From assembly GCA_030673105.1 (NCBI GenBank), contig DAOVJS010000006.1, positions 1 to 36,740 of the forward strand: a DNA stretch of 36,740 nucleotides, in the 5' to 3' direction. The notes below the pieces were generated by a model. It was given only the letters and a program-made list of their open reading frames with translations, did not search any database and was not told where the DNA came from. The stretch comes from Spirochaetota bacterium. GTDB lineage: Bacteria; Spirochaetota; B62-G9; DRHN01. Positions 18,038 to 24,364 of this stretch are shown piece by piece (the stretch's first letter is position 1; each line of letters begins with the position of its first letter). A program made the translations under genes and the position numbers.

Positions 18038-18589
18038 CTAGGTAATGACAAACTCGGTAAACGCAATCCCCGTTATTTGGCCATTAATTAATACATCATT
18101 AATTCTCTTTAGAAGATCCTTTTTAAGCTCATTCCTCTTATCCTGAGTATTCAAATCGCTGAACTTCTTACTCCCGACAACAGAAATAACTATATCACGC
18201 AGCTCCTGCCTCCTTGCCCCCAATTCTGTTTGTAATTCAACTGTTAGTGCCTCATACCCGAGCGAAATAGTCAGCTTTACGAAGTGAGGCTCATCAATAT
18301 CACTCGTGTTGATACTGAAATCCCTCATATCAAAGTAATTCAGCGGCTTGACCTTTTGCACTTTTTCGGGGGAAGTTTTTTCAGTAGCCGGAGGTTTTCC
18401 CACTTTCTGTGCTACAAAATAGGCTATAGTTCCTGAGATTATTATCATCACAAGGGCTCCGGCAATAATAACCAGCATTTTTATCATTGATGGGCCGAAG
18501 AGTTTTTTACCGGGGCCACCGGCTTCCATCACTTCCTCTTCCTCTTCAGTACCCTCAATATCTTCAACGGTCTCTTCTGTATCTGCCAT
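18038..18589 (-). CDS. fliL: FliL, stator-associated inner-membrane protein
   Basis: The 183-aa protein has an acidic N-terminal tail (to about residue 30), one membrane helix (about 35-60, MLVIIAGALVMIIISGTI) and a periplasmic domain with FSINTSDIDEPHFVKLTISL and the closing helices FSDLNTQDKRNELKKDLLKR and TGIAFTEFVIT. This is the SPFH-like FliL fold that rings the stator MotA/MotB. AAGGGG stands 6 nt before the ATG. The gene follows motB after 123 nt that include a stable small hairpin. Confidence 0.95.
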   Translation of the reverse strand: MADTEETVEDIEGTEEEEEVMEAGGPGKKLFGPSMIKMLVIIAGALVMIIISGTIAYFVAQKVGKPPATEKTSPEKVQKVKPLNYFDMRDFSINTSDIDEPHFVKLTISLGYEALTVELQTELGARRQELRDIVISVVGSKKFSDLNTQDKRNELKKDLLKRINDVLINGQITGIAFTEFVIT

Positions 18590-18712: not shown

Positions 18713-19453
18713 TTATGAGTACTCCTTCTTTCTCATGATTACTATCTCTATCCTCCTGTTGTAGGCCCTTCCCTCCTCGATATCGTTTGTTTCAACAGGC
18801 TGGTACTCTCCGTATCCTATTGCCTCAAGATTATCTCCACGTATGTTATGTTCCTCATTCAGGATTCTAATAATTTTTACCGCCCTCGCTGAGGAGAGTT
18901 CCCAGTTGGTGGGATATTGAAAGTAGAACGCACTGGCAGGAGAAACAGGGGTGTTATCAGTATGCCCCTCGACCCTTATGTCGTTTTCTTCAAATTCCCC
19001 GCTGCTTAAAAACTGTCCCAGCTTATCAATAACAGTCAGCCCCTCCCGGGTGAGCTCCGGGCTGCCGGATTCATAGAAGGCATCGGCAACAAGGGATATA
19101 ACAATTCCCCTTTGATCCTCCGTTATCTTTACCTTCCTGCTTTTCACCTCCGGTTGAAATATAGAAACCGCTTTTTCAATAGCCTTTGCAAGCTGGTTGC
19201 CTCTTTCCTTAGCGGGCAGGCTTTCGACCTGCTGGCCCAGTTCAGCCAGCACGCCTTCTGAAAGGGTCATGCCGCCTTTAAACATACCAAGTGACCCCTT
19301 GAAGGCGGAAAGGATCAACTGGAGTTCTCTCCCTTCAATTTCAGCTGTGGTAAACATTAGAATGAAAAAGGTCAGAAGAAGTGTAGTCATATCACCATAG
19401 GTAAGCATCCAGGCAGGAGCCCCCCTTCTCACCTTCTTTGTTGGCTTTGGCAT
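18713..19453 (-). CDS. motB: MotB, stator protein with OmpA-type peptidoglycan-binding domain
   Basis: The product has 246 aa. The start PTKKVRRGAPAWMLTYGDM leads into the single membrane helix, with the ion-carrying Asp at residue 21 (TYGDMTTLLLTFF). The plug/linker region runs from about 40 to 110. The OmpA-like domain (about 120-240) has FYESGSPELTREG, RVEGHTDNTPV, NWELSSARAVKIIR and GYGEYQP. MotB anchors the stator to peptidoglycan and, with MotA, conducts ions to drive rotation. AAAAGG precedes the ATG by 7 nt. motA lies 98 nt upstream. Confidence 0.97.
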   Translation of the reverse strand: MPKPTKKVRRGAPAWMLTYGDMTTLLLTFFILMFTTAEIEGRELQLILSAFKGSLGMFKGGMTLSEGVLAELGQQVESLPAKERGNQLAKAIEKAVSIFQPEVKSRKVKITEDQRGIVISLVADAFYESGSPELTREGLTVIDKLGQFLSSGEFEENDIRVEGHTDNTPVSPASAFYFQYPTNWELSSARAVKIIRILNEEHNIRGDNLEAIGYGEYQPVETNDIEEGRAYNRRIEIVIMRKKEYS

Positions 19454-19551: not shown

Positions 19552-20340
19552 TCACTCGCCTTCTCCCGTTTCTTCAACCTGTACCCTCATCTCTGGCGTC
19601 AGAAAGGAAACAAGCTTCTCTTTTACAATTCTGGGATTATCTCCGGATTGAATTGAGAGGGTCCCCTCGATCATAATTTCTCTTAAAAGAACCTCCTGTT
19701 TATCCACATACGTAAGCTTAGCGGCTATGGGCAAAAACACAAGATTAGCAAGAAAAGCCCCGTATAAGGTTGTTATAAGTGCCGTGGACATTCCGGGCCC
19801 GATCGCGCTCTTATCTTCAATATTGGAGAGCATGAGAATAAGACCGATGAGTGTCCCGATCATTCCGAAAGCCGGCGCGAAGGCTCCCCAGTCTTCAAAT
19901 ATCTTAATTCCATCCTGGTGCCGTGAAATCATGTTATTGAGCTCGGTTTCCATTATGTTCCGTATTATCTCGGGATCAGTACCATCCACAACAAGCTGTA
20001 TTCCTTTTCTGAGAAATTCGTCTTCAAGTTCATCGAGGTCATCCTCCAGAGCCAGAAGGCCCTCCCTCCTCGCTTTCTCAGAAAATGTTACTATCATCGA
20101 AATAATTCTGCCTGTTTCCATGGATTTTGTTTTAATCGCGTTCATCATAATCTTCATCAGGCCGAAGACCCTCGAGATGGAATTTGCAACCATAATCGCG
20201 CCAAAAGAGCCGCCGACTGTGATTAAAACTGACGGTATATTTATAAAACTGAAAAGCCCGCCCATTCCTCCGGCAATAACAATACCTAAAATAACAAAGA
20301 AAGCTCCAATTCCAAGACCCCCGAGTGTCGCTATATCCAT
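19552..20340 (-). CDS. motA: MotA, stator ion-channel protein
   Basis: The product has 262 aa with four membrane helices. Two are at the N-terminus (about 5-25 and 30-50) and two near 150-170 and 185-207, flanking the conserved GMIGTLIGLILMLSNIE and PGMSTALITTLYGAFLANLVF segments. The cytoplasmic loop between them (about 60-145) carries the charged residues that contact FliG. MotA surrounds the MotB dimer. Its place directly after flbD and before motB is a spirochaete arrangement; the Bacillus operon has no mot genes here. Confidence 0.97.
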   Translation of the reverse strand: MDIATLGGLGIGAFFVILGIVIAGGMGGLFSFINIPSVLITVGGSFGAIMVANSISRVFGLMKIMMNAIKTKSMETGRIISMIVTFSEKARREGLLALEDDLDELEDEFLRKGIQLVVDGTDPEIIRNIMETELNNMISRHQDGIKIFEDWGAFAPAFGMIGTLIGLILMLSNIEDKSAIGPGMSTALITTLYGAFLANLVFLPIAAKLTYVDKQEVLLREIMIEGTLSIQSGDNPRIVKEKLVSFLTPEMRVQVEETGEGE

Positions 20341-20405: not shown

Positions 20406-20603
20406 CTACTTCTCATTCCCGAACTGCCCGAGTTTTTGCCTGTATTCTACAATCTCATCACATATTTCTTCGGGGGATTCTTTCACCACAAGTTTTTTAC
20501 CCGATCCCAGGGTTAAAGTTGTATCCGGCCTAACTTCCATCATTTCTATAACATGAGGATTCAGCCAGTATTCTACTCCATTTAGCCGTGTTACCTTTAT
20601 CAA
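20406..20603 (-). CDS. flbD: FlbD, small flagellar protein
   Basis: The 65-aa protein opens MIKVTRLNGVEYWLNPHVIE and continues MMEVRPDTTLTLGSGKKLVV, which is the whole conserved core of the FlbD/SwrD family. In Bacillus, SwrD raises motor torque, perhaps by acting on the stator; the role in spirochaetes is unproven. The start codon is TTG with AGAGG 7 nt upstream. It lies 29 nt after flgE and before motA, the standard order. The predicted torque role would fit the neighbouring stator genes. Confidence 0.93.
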   Translation of the reverse strand: MIKVTRLNGVEYWLNPHVIEMMEVRPDTTLTLGSGKKLVVKESPEEICDEIVEYRQKLGQFGNEK

Positions 20604-20632: not shown

Positions 20633-22018
20633 TTACCGTTTCAGGGTTAATAGTTCCTGAAGCATCTGATCCGATGTTGTTATGCTTCTTGAATTTGCCT
20701 GAAACCCTCTCTGGGTGACAATCATATCTGTAAACTGTTCAGCAAGATCCACGTTGCTCATCTCTAAAGTTCCGGCTGTGATTTTCCCGCGTCCACCCGT
20801 CTCTGCTGACCCGATGTTTGCAAGACCTGAATTATTTGTTTGTAAAAATGTATTATCCCCAGCTGTCGTCAATCCCTGCGGATTGATAAAAGTCGCGAGC
20901 GCTACCTGAGCAATCGGGGCCTTTTTCCCATTTGTATATACACCCGTAATTATCCCGGAACTATCAACTGTGAACGACTGAAGATATCCCATCCCATACC
21001 CATCCTGCTCATACGCCTTGGTCGAGGATGGCGCCGCAAACTGCGTTATACCATGGAAGCTACCGGTAGTTCCAAGATCGATATTAATCGTCTGGGTTAT
21101 ACCTTCCGCGGGAAAACTGACGTTAAGAGCAGCTGCAAGCTGTCCGTCTGTGATTGTATCGAGCGGTGCACCCGGTGTTACAGGGCTGTCCTCAATCGAA
21201 ACAGGCGCCCCCTGATTATTAAATCTCATTAAAATTGAATTTGAATCATTGGTGTTCTGTCCACCCACATCAAACGTGAGATTGGCAGGGTCCGCGCCCG
21301 CCACTGAAGCCGTAACCAGCCAGGTGTTTGGTTCACCCTGCACTCTTGTAAATTCAACGATAACCCTGCGCACGTTTCCCAAACTGTCATAGGTATCTAT
21401 ATTCGTTACAACGGTCGAATTTAATAGTTCCTCAGGGGTTGGAGCGCGGCCTACCGGCAGAAGCGGAGTTTCAGAATTAAGATTGCTCTTATACCTGATA
21501 ATCTCAGTCGCTTTCGCGGGATCTTTCCCGCCGATCGGGATTATGATATCCTCCATGTCACCGCTTGTATTTATAAGGTACTCAGTTCCGGCCTTGACTG
21601 CCTGCCAGCCCTGTATCCTAAGACCATTCGCGGGATTAACAACTGTACCGTTCTTGTCAAGGCCGAACCCTCCGGCCCTTGTAAAGAACTGCTCCTCGCC
21701 TTTACTCAAAACAAAGAACCCTTCACCCTGGATTGCAAGGTCAAGGTTTAATCCTGTCGTCTGCAGGCTTCCCTGTGTAAAGATTTTATCAATGCTCGCT
21801 ATATTCATCCCGAGCCCCACCTGTTTCGGATTGACCCCTCCCTTTTCCGCGGTGGGAGCGGCAGCTCCTGAAATTGTCTGAGACAAAATATCCTGAAAAG
21901 AGACCCTGCTTTTTTTAAAACCGTAGGTGTTAACATTGGCAATGTTGTTGCCGAGAACATCCATCCTGATCTGATGATTTCTTAATCCTGAAACACCAGA
22001 GTAAAGAGATCGCATCAT
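20633..22018 (-). CDS. flgE: FlgE, flagellar hook protein
   Basis: The product has 461 aa. The N-terminal rod/hook motif MMRSLYSGVSGLRNHQIRMD with NNIANVNTYGFKKSRVSFQD and the C-terminal MSNVDLAEQFTDMIVTQRGF with QANSRSITTSD are the D0/D1 signatures of hook proteins. Spirochaete FlgE normally crosslinks neighbouring subunits through lysinoalanine between Lys165 and Cys178 (Treponema denticola numbering). Here Lys165 is present in PIGGKDPAKATE, but residue 178 is Ser (RYKSNLN), and the whole protein has no cysteine. Start: the first of two ATGs, 9 nt after AAGGAG. A separate strong Shine-Dalgarno with a two-codon frame lies further upstream. Confidence 0.96.
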   Translation of the reverse strand: MMRSLYSGVSGLRNHQIRMDVLGNNIANVNTYGFKKSRVSFQDILSQTISGAAAPTAEKGGVNPKQVGLGMNIASIDKIFTQGSLQTTGLNLDLAIQGEGFFVLSKGEEQFFTRAGGFGLDKNGTVVNPANGLRIQGWQAVKAGTEYLINTSGDMEDIIIPIGGKDPAKATEIIRYKSNLNSETPLLPVGRAPTPEELLNSTVVTNIDTYDSLGNVRRVIVEFTRVQGEPNTWLVTASVAGADPANLTFDVGGQNTNDSNSILMRFNNQGAPVSIEDSPVTPGAPLDTITDGQLAAALNVSFPAEGITQTINIDLGTTGSFHGITQFAAPSSTKAYEQDGYGMGYLQSFTVDSSGIITGVYTNGKKAPIAQVALATFINPQGLTTAGDNTFLQTNNSGLANIGSAETGGRGKITAGTLEMSNVDLAEQFTDMIVTQRGFQANSRSITTSDQMLQELLTLKR

Positions 22019-22076: not shown

Positions 22077-22538
22077 TCACATTTTAACTTTTATAACGTC
22101 ATCTATACTGTAGCTGAAACCATTAAAGGATATTCTTGGAGCGTCATTGGCGAACATTCCGCTTCCAAAGTTTATTTCTGAAACAACACCGCTATTTTTT
22201 TCCCCTGTTGCACTGTCCAGCACATCTACCTGCTTTCCTAAAAGAGAATAGGAAAGTGTCAATTTATTGTTAGCTATAAGACCGGAGAGCGTCTTATTCA
22301 TGGACGTCATCTGTTCCAGAGAAGAAAACTGTGCCATCTGCGAAATAAATTCCTTATCTTCAAAGGGTCTTGTCGGGTCCTGATTTTCAAGCTGTACAAT
22401 AAGCAACCGAAGGAAATCTTCTTTTCCGAGTATATTGCTTGCTTTTCTACCATTTCTTACCAAAGTTTTATTAAAACTTTCCACCTGAACCTTTGTCTTG
22501 AACAATTCGTTTGTACTCATTGCTAATGGAACATCCAT
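22077..22538 (-). CDS. flgD: FlgD, hook-capping/scaffold protein
   Basis: The 153-aa protein has the conserved N-terminal FlgD part: KEDFLRLLIVQLENQDPTRP, then FEDKEFISQMAQFSSLEQMT. A short C-terminal beta domain follows. It is shorter than enterobacterial FlgD (about 230 aa) but similar to the compact forms in spirochaetes and Bacillus. FlgD caps the growing hook so that FlgE can polymerise. AGGAG stands 6 nt before the ATG. The gene lies 9 nt after fliK and 58 nt before flgE. Confidence 0.94.
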   Translation of the reverse strand: MDVPLAMSTNELFKTKVQVESFNKTLVRNGRKASNILGKEDFLRLLIVQLENQDPTRPFEDKEFISQMAQFSSLEQMTSMNKTLSGLIANNKLTLSYSLLGKQVDVLDSATGEKNSGVVSEINFGSGMFANDAPRISFNGFSYSIDDVIKVKM

Positions 22539-22547
22539 GTTCTTCTC

Positions 22548-23744
22548 CTATACTGTAATATTCACAACAGTAGAAATCCACGGAAGGCCTGACATTGAAG
22601 CCCTGCTAATCTCTAAATCCTGATCCTCATCTTCAATGTTATTTATACCCGGCCCCTTTTTAACATCCTTTCCCGCGGTTTCAGGCTCTGTATTCCTGTC
22701 CTTCACCTCAACCTCAAAAGAGCCGAGGCTGAAACCCTGCTCCAAAAGATTCTGCTCAAGAATGTTGAGCCTGCTCATGATTAATTCTTTTACAGCCTGG
22801 TTATCAACAACCATAAAGGTGTTTACCTCGTTATTATAGAGTTTCAGGCTCAGCTTCACCTGCCCGAGAACCTCAGGCTGCAACACAACCTTTGCCTCTC
22901 CCCCTCCCTTTTTTACAACCATCGAAAATTGCTTAACTATATCATTAAATATCTCATCGGCACTTCTATGAATTTGATAATCCGGTTTTGTGACCGTGTT
23001 TGGAATATTGTTTTCATATTTTAAACAGGCAAAAGAGAACTCTCTCCCGCCTTGAGCGGCCTTTTTGCCTCCTGAAGAGTCCCGGGCCTCTTTCAAATCG
23101 TCACCAAGAAACTGCTCCGCAGCATTTTTCGACTTAATCGTAACTGTATCATACTTTTCACCAAACCCGATATTCTTCCTTTTACCGTATCCTTTTATTT
23201 TTACATATTTTTTGTTTTTAATTTTTTCCTTAAACGAGTTTACCGTATTTTTCTTTACTGTTTCCGTGTATTGTACAGATCCCAGTGTCCGTAAATATAT
23301 CTTCTTCCCGTTTCTCAAGAGGCTATTATGAAAAAACGATGTTCTTCTTCTATTATGTATATTTCCGCCCTGAAATCCTTTCTTCTGCTGTTTTTCCGTT
23401 TTCTGCTCAGGGGCCGGATTCACACTTTTATTGAAAATTACCTTTCCTTTAAGACGTCCGCTTCCGGGACTCTGTGACCCGGGACTCACATCTCCCGCGA
23501 GCTGCTTGATCAGGGAAATTATTTTCTTTCCGGATTTAACACTCTTCTTCGCTATATTCTTATCAGGATTTTTAGGTTTAACTTTTTGGTCCTTATCGCC
23601 CTCTCCCTGTATCCTGTGCCAATGCCCGAGAAGCGAAGAAAACTGCTGATCCCCGGATTCAACAGACTTATTATTGATCTTTTCAGGCTTCTTACCATGA
23701 GCCTTAACACTCTGAGCTTCAGCCATACCGGGAGTACTAATCAT
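22548..23744 (-). CDS. fliK: FliK-type hook-length control protein
   Basis: The product has 398 aa. The first 270 residues are low-complexity, very rich in Lys, Gly, Asn and Ser with little predicted order, as expected of an exported ruler. Residues about 275-375 form the FliK C-terminal (Flg_hook) domain: AKVVLQPEVLGQVKLSLKLY, then MSRLNILEQNLLEQGFSLGS. FliK measures hook length and triggers the FlhB switch. ATG directly follows the stop of the flbB 3' frame (TAG-ATG). It occupies the place called flbC or tap1 in other spirochaetes. Confidence 0.88.
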   Translation of the reverse strand: MISTPGMAEAQSVKAHGKKPEKINNKSVESGDQQFSSLLGHWHRIQGEGDKDQKVKPKNPDKNIAKKSVKSGKKIISLIKQLAGDVSPGSQSPGSGRLKGKVIFNKSVNPAPEQKTEKQQKKGFQGGNIHNRRRTSFFHNSLLRNGKKIYLRTLGSVQYTETVKKNTVNSFKEKIKNKKYVKIKGYGKRKNIGFGEKYDTVTIKSKNAAEQFLGDDLKEARDSSGGKKAAQGGREFSFACLKYENNIPNTVTKPDYQIHRSADEIFNDIVKQFSMVVKKGGGEAKVVLQPEVLGQVKLSLKLYNNEVNTFMVVDNQAVKELIMSRLNILEQNLLEQGFSLGSFEVEVKDRNTEPETAGKDVKKGPGINNIEDEDQDLEISRASMSGLPWISTVVNITV

Positions 23745-24008
23745 CTATTCACCAACCTTTGTCATCTTTCTCTGTAATGTCGCAGCTTTATCAGGATCCA
23801 TTAGACTGAGAAAATAGGGCACGACTGAAACCTTTCCCTCTTCTTCAGCTTCCTTATCTATCTGTCTGAGGATATCAATCGCGAGAAGGTCGTCGAGTTT
23901 GGAAATCCTCTCAACAGCAGCAGGCGGCGGCATATTTATTAAATATCCTGCCTGCGTTTTTATATTTTCCTTATAATTATCGTATTCACGAAGTTTTTCG
24001 CTTAACAC
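23745..24008 (-). CDS. flbB: FlbB C-terminal part (MgtE_N-like domain), separate overlapping frame
   Basis: The frame gives 87 aa, starting GTG at 24006-24008 inside the end of the upstream flbB frame. The sequence LREYDNYKENIKTQAGYLIN, then MPPPAAVERISKLDDLLAID and VPYFLSLMDPDKAATLQRKM, is an MgtE intracellular N-terminal-like helical domain. It is found in FlbB of spirochaetes and, by equivalent position, in YlxF of Bacillus. It continues the upstream 120-aa frame in the -1 frame. Together they make about 207 aa, close to the length I recall for Borrelia FlbB. GAGGAAGAG lies 5 nt before the GTG, so independent, coupled initiation is also possible. Confidence 0.75.
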   Translation of the reverse strand: MLSEKLREYDNYKENIKTQAGYLINMPPPAAVERISKLDDLLAIDILRQIDKEAEEEGKVSVVPYFLSLMDPDKAATLQRKMTKVGE

Positions 24009-24364
24009 TTTTTCTCTTCCTCCAACCGGTTCGCCTCTTCAGATAGCTTTGCCTCAATCTCCTGTAACTCAAGCGATCTTTGCTCAAACACCTGTTTTTC
24101 CAATTCCAGCTCCTTTGTCCTGGCAAGAAGTATATCTTCCCTTTTTTTAAAAAACTCTTCCTCAAGGAGCAGAGGATCTTCTGATACTTCCACACCTCTC
24201 TTCATAAAAGCGGGAAGATATTTCTCAAAGGGCCCGACATAATTTTTATAGTCCACCATCCCAAGATGGTCAAACCAGTAGATACCCCCGAGCGTGATCA
24301 CCAGTATAAGCAGCACCAGAAAAATAACTTTAAGAAGGTTTGTGATTGTTGATGCTGCGCTCAT
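24002..24364 (-). CDS. flbB: FlbB N-terminal part (membrane anchor and coiled coil)
   Basis: The frame gives 120 aa. A membrane helix near the start (about 8-30, LLKVIFLVLLILVITLGGIY) is followed by a short periplasmic or membrane-proximal segment and a highly charged coiled coil (about 65-118). The frame ends GAG AAA AAG TGT TAA, where a -1 shift would join it to the MgtE_N-like frame. In Borrelia, FlbB is a base component of the periplasmic collar around the spirochaete motor. GGAGGG stands 5 nt before the ATG. Whether the product is two chains, a frameshift fusion or a broken gene cannot be decided from the sequence. Confidence 0.75.
   Translation of the reverse strand: MSAASTITNLLKVIFLVLLILVITLGGIYWFDHLGMVDYKNYVGPFEKYLPAFMKRGVEVSEDPLLLEEEFFKKREDILLARTKELELEKQVFEQRSLELQEIEAKLSEEANRLEEEKKC

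Follow-up and report, generated by a model that had tools for sequence, protein, structure and literature searches.

Serine at the lysinoalanine crosslink site of a spirochaete flagellar hook protein

The flgE locus and its product

The DNA analysed here, referred to as the window, is a stretch of 36,740 nucleotides from contig DAOVJS010000006.1 of a Spirochaetota assembly (GCA_030673105.1). Its gene for the flagellar hook protein, flgE, lies within a run of flagellar genes, with flgD, fliK and others upstream and motA, motB and fliL downstream (Table 1). The short gene separating flgE from motA is one that we take, from its position and sequence, to be flbD. The gene for the collar protein FlbB is split by a frameshift; its frame is intact in five relatives of the same class (L194-L198) and there is no second copy in the window's genome, and the lesion may be either an assembly error or real. 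Elsewhere in this genome (contig C81, 19668-20874) are two tandem genes for the sheath protein FlaA, a mark of periplasmic flagella. With both FlaA and FlbB present, the latter divided in the window assembly, the organism has the gene content of a spirochaete with periplasmic flagella.

Table 1. Features of the flgE region discussed in the text (Td, Treponema denticola numbering)
Feature	Positions	Strand	Basis
fliL	18038..18589	-	PF03748
motB	18713..19453	-	PF13677 and OmpA
motA	19552..20340	-	PF01618
Short gene between flgE and motA	20406..20603	-	ORF
flgE, flagellar hook protein	20633..22018	-	ORF; NF004241, Pfam, 6NDX phmmer and Foldseek matches
Lys334 codon (Td Lys336)	21017..21019	-	Lys in 112/112 Cys-type and 44/72 Ser-type distinct proteins
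Ser332 codon (Td Thr334)	21023..21025	-	Ser/Thr in 196/196 spirochaete loci
Asn179 codon, residue with a structural role at the site	21482..21484	-	196/196 spirochaete and 20/20 outgroup loci
Ser178 codon AGC (Td Cys178 position), predicted dehydroalanine precursor	21485..21487	-	Alignment; Cys/Ser only across sampled spirochaetes
Lys165 codon AAA, the lysine expected to take part in the crosslink	21524..21526	-	Invariant, 196/196 spirochaete loci
flgD, hook cap protein	22077..22538	-	PF03963
fliK, hook length control	22548..23744	-	PF02120
flbB, collar protein, in two overlapping frames (24002-24364, 23745-24008)	23745-24364	-	Frame shifted by one base within a short stretch of A

The product of flgE is a protein of 461 residues devoid of cysteine. 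It scores 534.5 bits against the NCBIfam model NF004241 (flagellar hook protein FlgE; cut-off 469), contains the Pfam domains Flg_bb_rod, FlgE_D2 and Flg_bbr_C, and is matched by phmmer to T. denticola 6NDX_B, a crosslinked FlgE chain carrying C178A, with an E-value of 2.2e-81; together with a Foldseek match to the same entry, these results identify it as a full-length spirochaete FlgE. An earlier note on this DNA had drawn attention to the missing cysteine, to Lys165 and to the AGC serine codon at residue 178, and its facts and coordinates are right. It had further held that spacing and numbering agree with T. denticola without gaps. The phmmer alignment with 6NDX_B bears this out over residues 165-179 and is in fact gap-free throughout residues 91-190; K165, S178 and N179 are in register with K165, residue 178 and N179 of that chain. 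The alignment proposed as a check thus places Ser178 on the position of T. denticola Cys178, and misalignment of the site was rejected, there being zero gaps over residues 91-190. Thr334 and Lys336 of T. denticola are matched by Ser332 and Lys334 of the window protein. Having serine at position 178, this protein is not a Cys-type lysinoalanine FlgE; it carries the serine, Lys165 and Asn179 of the Ser type.

In a Foldseek comparison, an AlphaFold model of the window protein superimposes on the crosslinked dimer of 6NDX with an rmsd of 2.6 Å and a target TM-score of 0.85 to 6NDX_B. As modelled, the D1-D2 fold is the same as that of 6NDX, and this is all that the model confirms: confidence is poor in D0, over residues 1-90 and a large part of 417-461, and a monomer was modelled, which puts inter-subunit distances outside its scope.

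Distribution of serine and cysteine at position 178

The class to which the window belongs comprises eight genomes in two families, from seven of which, the window's included, FlgE was recovered. A survey of close relatives had been suggested, and all seven proteins have Ser178, encoded by AGC or AGT; the two nearest families outside the class use TCA. These codons bear on the possibility that a TGC codon was turned into that of Ser178 by a mistake in sequencing or assembly. AGC is one base from TGC, and the genome assembly is fragmented, with one probable frameshift in the window itself, that of flbB; with serine in all six further proteins of the class and TCA in the adjoining families, such an error is hardly credible, and it was rejected. 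One point that speaks against crosslinking in the class is window position 333, next to the Thr334 equivalent, which is occupied by Ala or Val in three of its seven proteins.

The wider sample took in this class, the majority of the phylum's family-level groups and a set of named genomes; the presence of the genus Leptospira itself in it is uncertain. Early sampling was biased towards window-like, Ser-type sequences, and 30 genomes from missing families and genera were added to lessen this bias. At 196 spirochaete loci, position 178 is cysteine in 118 and serine in 78, and nothing else; the 184 distinct proteins divide into 112 and 72, again with no third residue. To our knowledge, cysteine and serine are the only residues that eliminate readily to dehydroalanine, which is established chemistry. 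Strict two-residue columns in which both residues are common number only six between positions 90 and 419, with 178 and 332 among them. Serine is the sole state in 29 of 56 family-level groups and cysteine in 25, the other two being mixed. Beyond the window's class, Ser178 is found in Leptospirales-like lineages (L142, L149, L153), in one Brevinematales genome (L125) and in three Treponema genomes (L143, L168, L170), and a genus of the Brachyspira family holds both states, in a species pair two base changes apart (L076 in G046, Ser, TCA; L065 in G053, Cys, TGT). Across the survey the serine is encoded by AGC, by AGT and by every TCN codon, and the direction of change cannot be read from codon type. 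One genome (G119) has two full-length FlgE copies, on contigs C14 and C39; the copy read is of the Ser type.

Lys165 and Asn179 are each present at all 196 loci, Cys-type and Ser-type alike, and the lysine has therefore not drifted in Ser-type proteins. This invariance, with only two residues at position 178 across 184 distinct proteins, is well beyond what chance would give. Among 20 FlgE proteins from other phyla, residue 178 is Gly in 13, Lys in five and Tyr and Asn in the others, Lys165 occurs in three, and Asn179 in all 20. From this outgroup pattern, Lys165 and the choice between cysteine and serine are spirochaete marks, Asn179 being a general one.

The earlier note had left three options for the serine: that the lineage lacks the crosslink, that it makes dehydroalanine from serine, or that it strengthens its hook differently. 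The evidence favours the second, and neither of the others is supported. If the crosslink had been lost, Ser178 and Lys165 would have been kept because they pack or form hydrogen bonds where D1 meets D2. Serine is a worse leaving group than cysteine, the Leptospira reaction is slow in vitro and requires pH 10-11 (PMC10691653), and the conservation of Asn179 outside the spirochaetes implies that the motif is partly structural; the conservation of Lys165, too, could in principle reflect packing. Such a loss is nonetheless improbable. Every Ser-type protein has Lys165, which FlgE of other phyla can do without, and residue 178 is never Ala, Gly or Thr in the spirochaetes sampled. Moreover, Leptospira, likewise of the Ser type, forms the crosslink in vivo as well as in vitro, and T. 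denticola FlgE with C178S does so in vitro (PMC10691653).

Ancestral state and the position of T. denticola Lys336

Trees of FlgE were built with columns 178 and 334 left out and rooted on the proteins of other phyla; they require seven to eight changes between serine and cysteine. Under a two-state model, the posterior for serine at the base of the spirochaetes is 0.98-0.999 on the best tree and has a median of 0.98-0.99 over bootstraps (5% quantile 0.88-0.95). The earlier, more biased sets gave 0.85-0.998 on their best trees, and over bootstraps the 5% quantile fell as low as 0.46. Serine is thus probably the older state of spirochaete FlgE and not the outcome of a loss of cysteine, which would have arisen several times with a few returns to serine. 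Since the tree used is a gene tree whose deep branches are partly weakly supported, we hold the serine-first order as likely and infer its direction; with serine ancestral on the rooted tree, cysteine looks derived. The idea that serine is a replacement peculiar to the window's lineage is not supported, as serine is present in over half of the sampled family-level groups, is probably ancestral and is already known from Leptospira and Brevinema.

A second position distinguishes the two types. The lysine equivalent to the active-site residue Lys336 of T. denticola, Lys334 in the window, is kept by every Cys-type protein and by only part of the Ser-type ones (Table 1), those lacking it having Arg, His, Tyr, Ser, Glu or Gly in its place; one Leptospirales-like family has His in several of its genomes. 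Loss of this lysine is associated with the Ser type at P of about 0.04 in a tree-corrected, model-based test of correlated evolution, the position having been chosen post hoc, and an independent-pairs test offered two to four informative pairs, each of which agreed with the association, a number too small for significance. Because the position was picked after the table had been seen, relaxation of this lysine in Ser-type proteins alone is best treated as a lead. A structure of T. denticola FlgE with K336A has been deposited (PDB 6NDV), which indicates that its authors held the residue relevant.

This relaxation, suggesting as it does a different chemistry at the site, also has a bearing on whether Ser178 acts unaided. 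A separate enzyme might activate the serine by phosphorylation or acylation before elimination, much as in lantibiotic dehydration, and such a helper would be expected in Ser-type and not in Cys-type lineages. The slowness of the serine reaction in vitro and its need, in Leptospira, for pH 10-11 suggest some helper in cells, and it has been proposed that cellular factors perhaps compensate for it (PMC10691653). Recombinant Leptospira FlgE, however, crosslinks with no factor added, and we regard a dedicated enzyme as unlikely.

Crosslinking in Ser-type hooks and comparison with known systems

We therefore favour, with a probability of about 0.8, the reading that the window encodes an ordinary Ser-type spirochaete hook protein that crosslinks autocatalytically. 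Hook assembly would bring Ser178 of one subunit beside Lys165 of its neighbour, and the serine would then become dehydroalanine by β-elimination of water without a dedicated enzyme. Addition of Lys165 to the dehydroalanine would give a lysinoalanine bridge, as has been measured in Leptospira interrogans, and this bridge may be expected to stiffen the hook. Crosslinking in the window organism is proposed by analogy, because the Ser-type protein of Leptospira forms lysinoalanine. Most likely, then, this FlgE joins the known Ser-type lysinoalanine hook proteins, and the observation made in the earlier note is a real one that appears ordinary among its relatives.

The point of interest lies rather in how widespread, and probably ancestral, the serine is, the cysteine of the textbooks being derived. 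In the literature collection searched, no paper on serine at the FlgE crosslink site was found besides one (PMC10691653; PNAS Nexus 2023), which describes the cysteine as conserved in FlgE outside Leptospira; against this, serine occurs in 31 of the 56 family-level groups sampled here, and the survey may be of some use for that reason. A broader proposition, for and against which we see the case as evenly balanced, is that the spirochaete hook crosslink began as lysinoalanine made from serine, and that the majority of family-level lineages still make it in this way. Cysteine would then have appeared on several occasions, bringing a faster reaction and coming to depend on the active-site residue Lys336 of T. 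denticola, which Ser-type proteins can lose. The natural pairs of cysteine and serine within one genus would allow direct tests of what the leaving group, Lys336 and a possible helper factor each contribute. A crosslink inhibitor directed at the thiol could be expected to leave Ser-type species unaffected.

Three known systems provide the closest comparisons. With the FlgE of T. denticola (6NDX, 6NDT, 6NDV, 6NDW), whose lysinoalanine is formed by Cys178 and Lys165, the window protein shares family, numbering, the position of the site by alignment and the D1-D2 fold, and it keeps Lys165, Asn179 and the equivalent of Lys336; it differs in having Ser178 in place of Cys178 and Ser332 in place of Thr334. 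The FlgE of L. interrogans resembles it in having serine at the cysteine site, a conserved lysine 13 residues earlier and periplasmic flagella. In that protein, both recombinant and native, lysinoalanine is formed by Ser179 with Lys166 and also with Lys145 and Lys148 (PMC10691653). The window FlgE has Thr145 and Leu148 instead, and its nearby Lys142 varies within the class. The lack of these extra acceptors counts against crosslinking here; they are a Leptospirales feature that the crosslink does not require. Brevinema andersonii, with K165 and S178 (PMC10691653), combines the two residues outside Leptospira, as the window protein does, and differs from it in T328, a threonine at the Thr334-type position where the window has serine.
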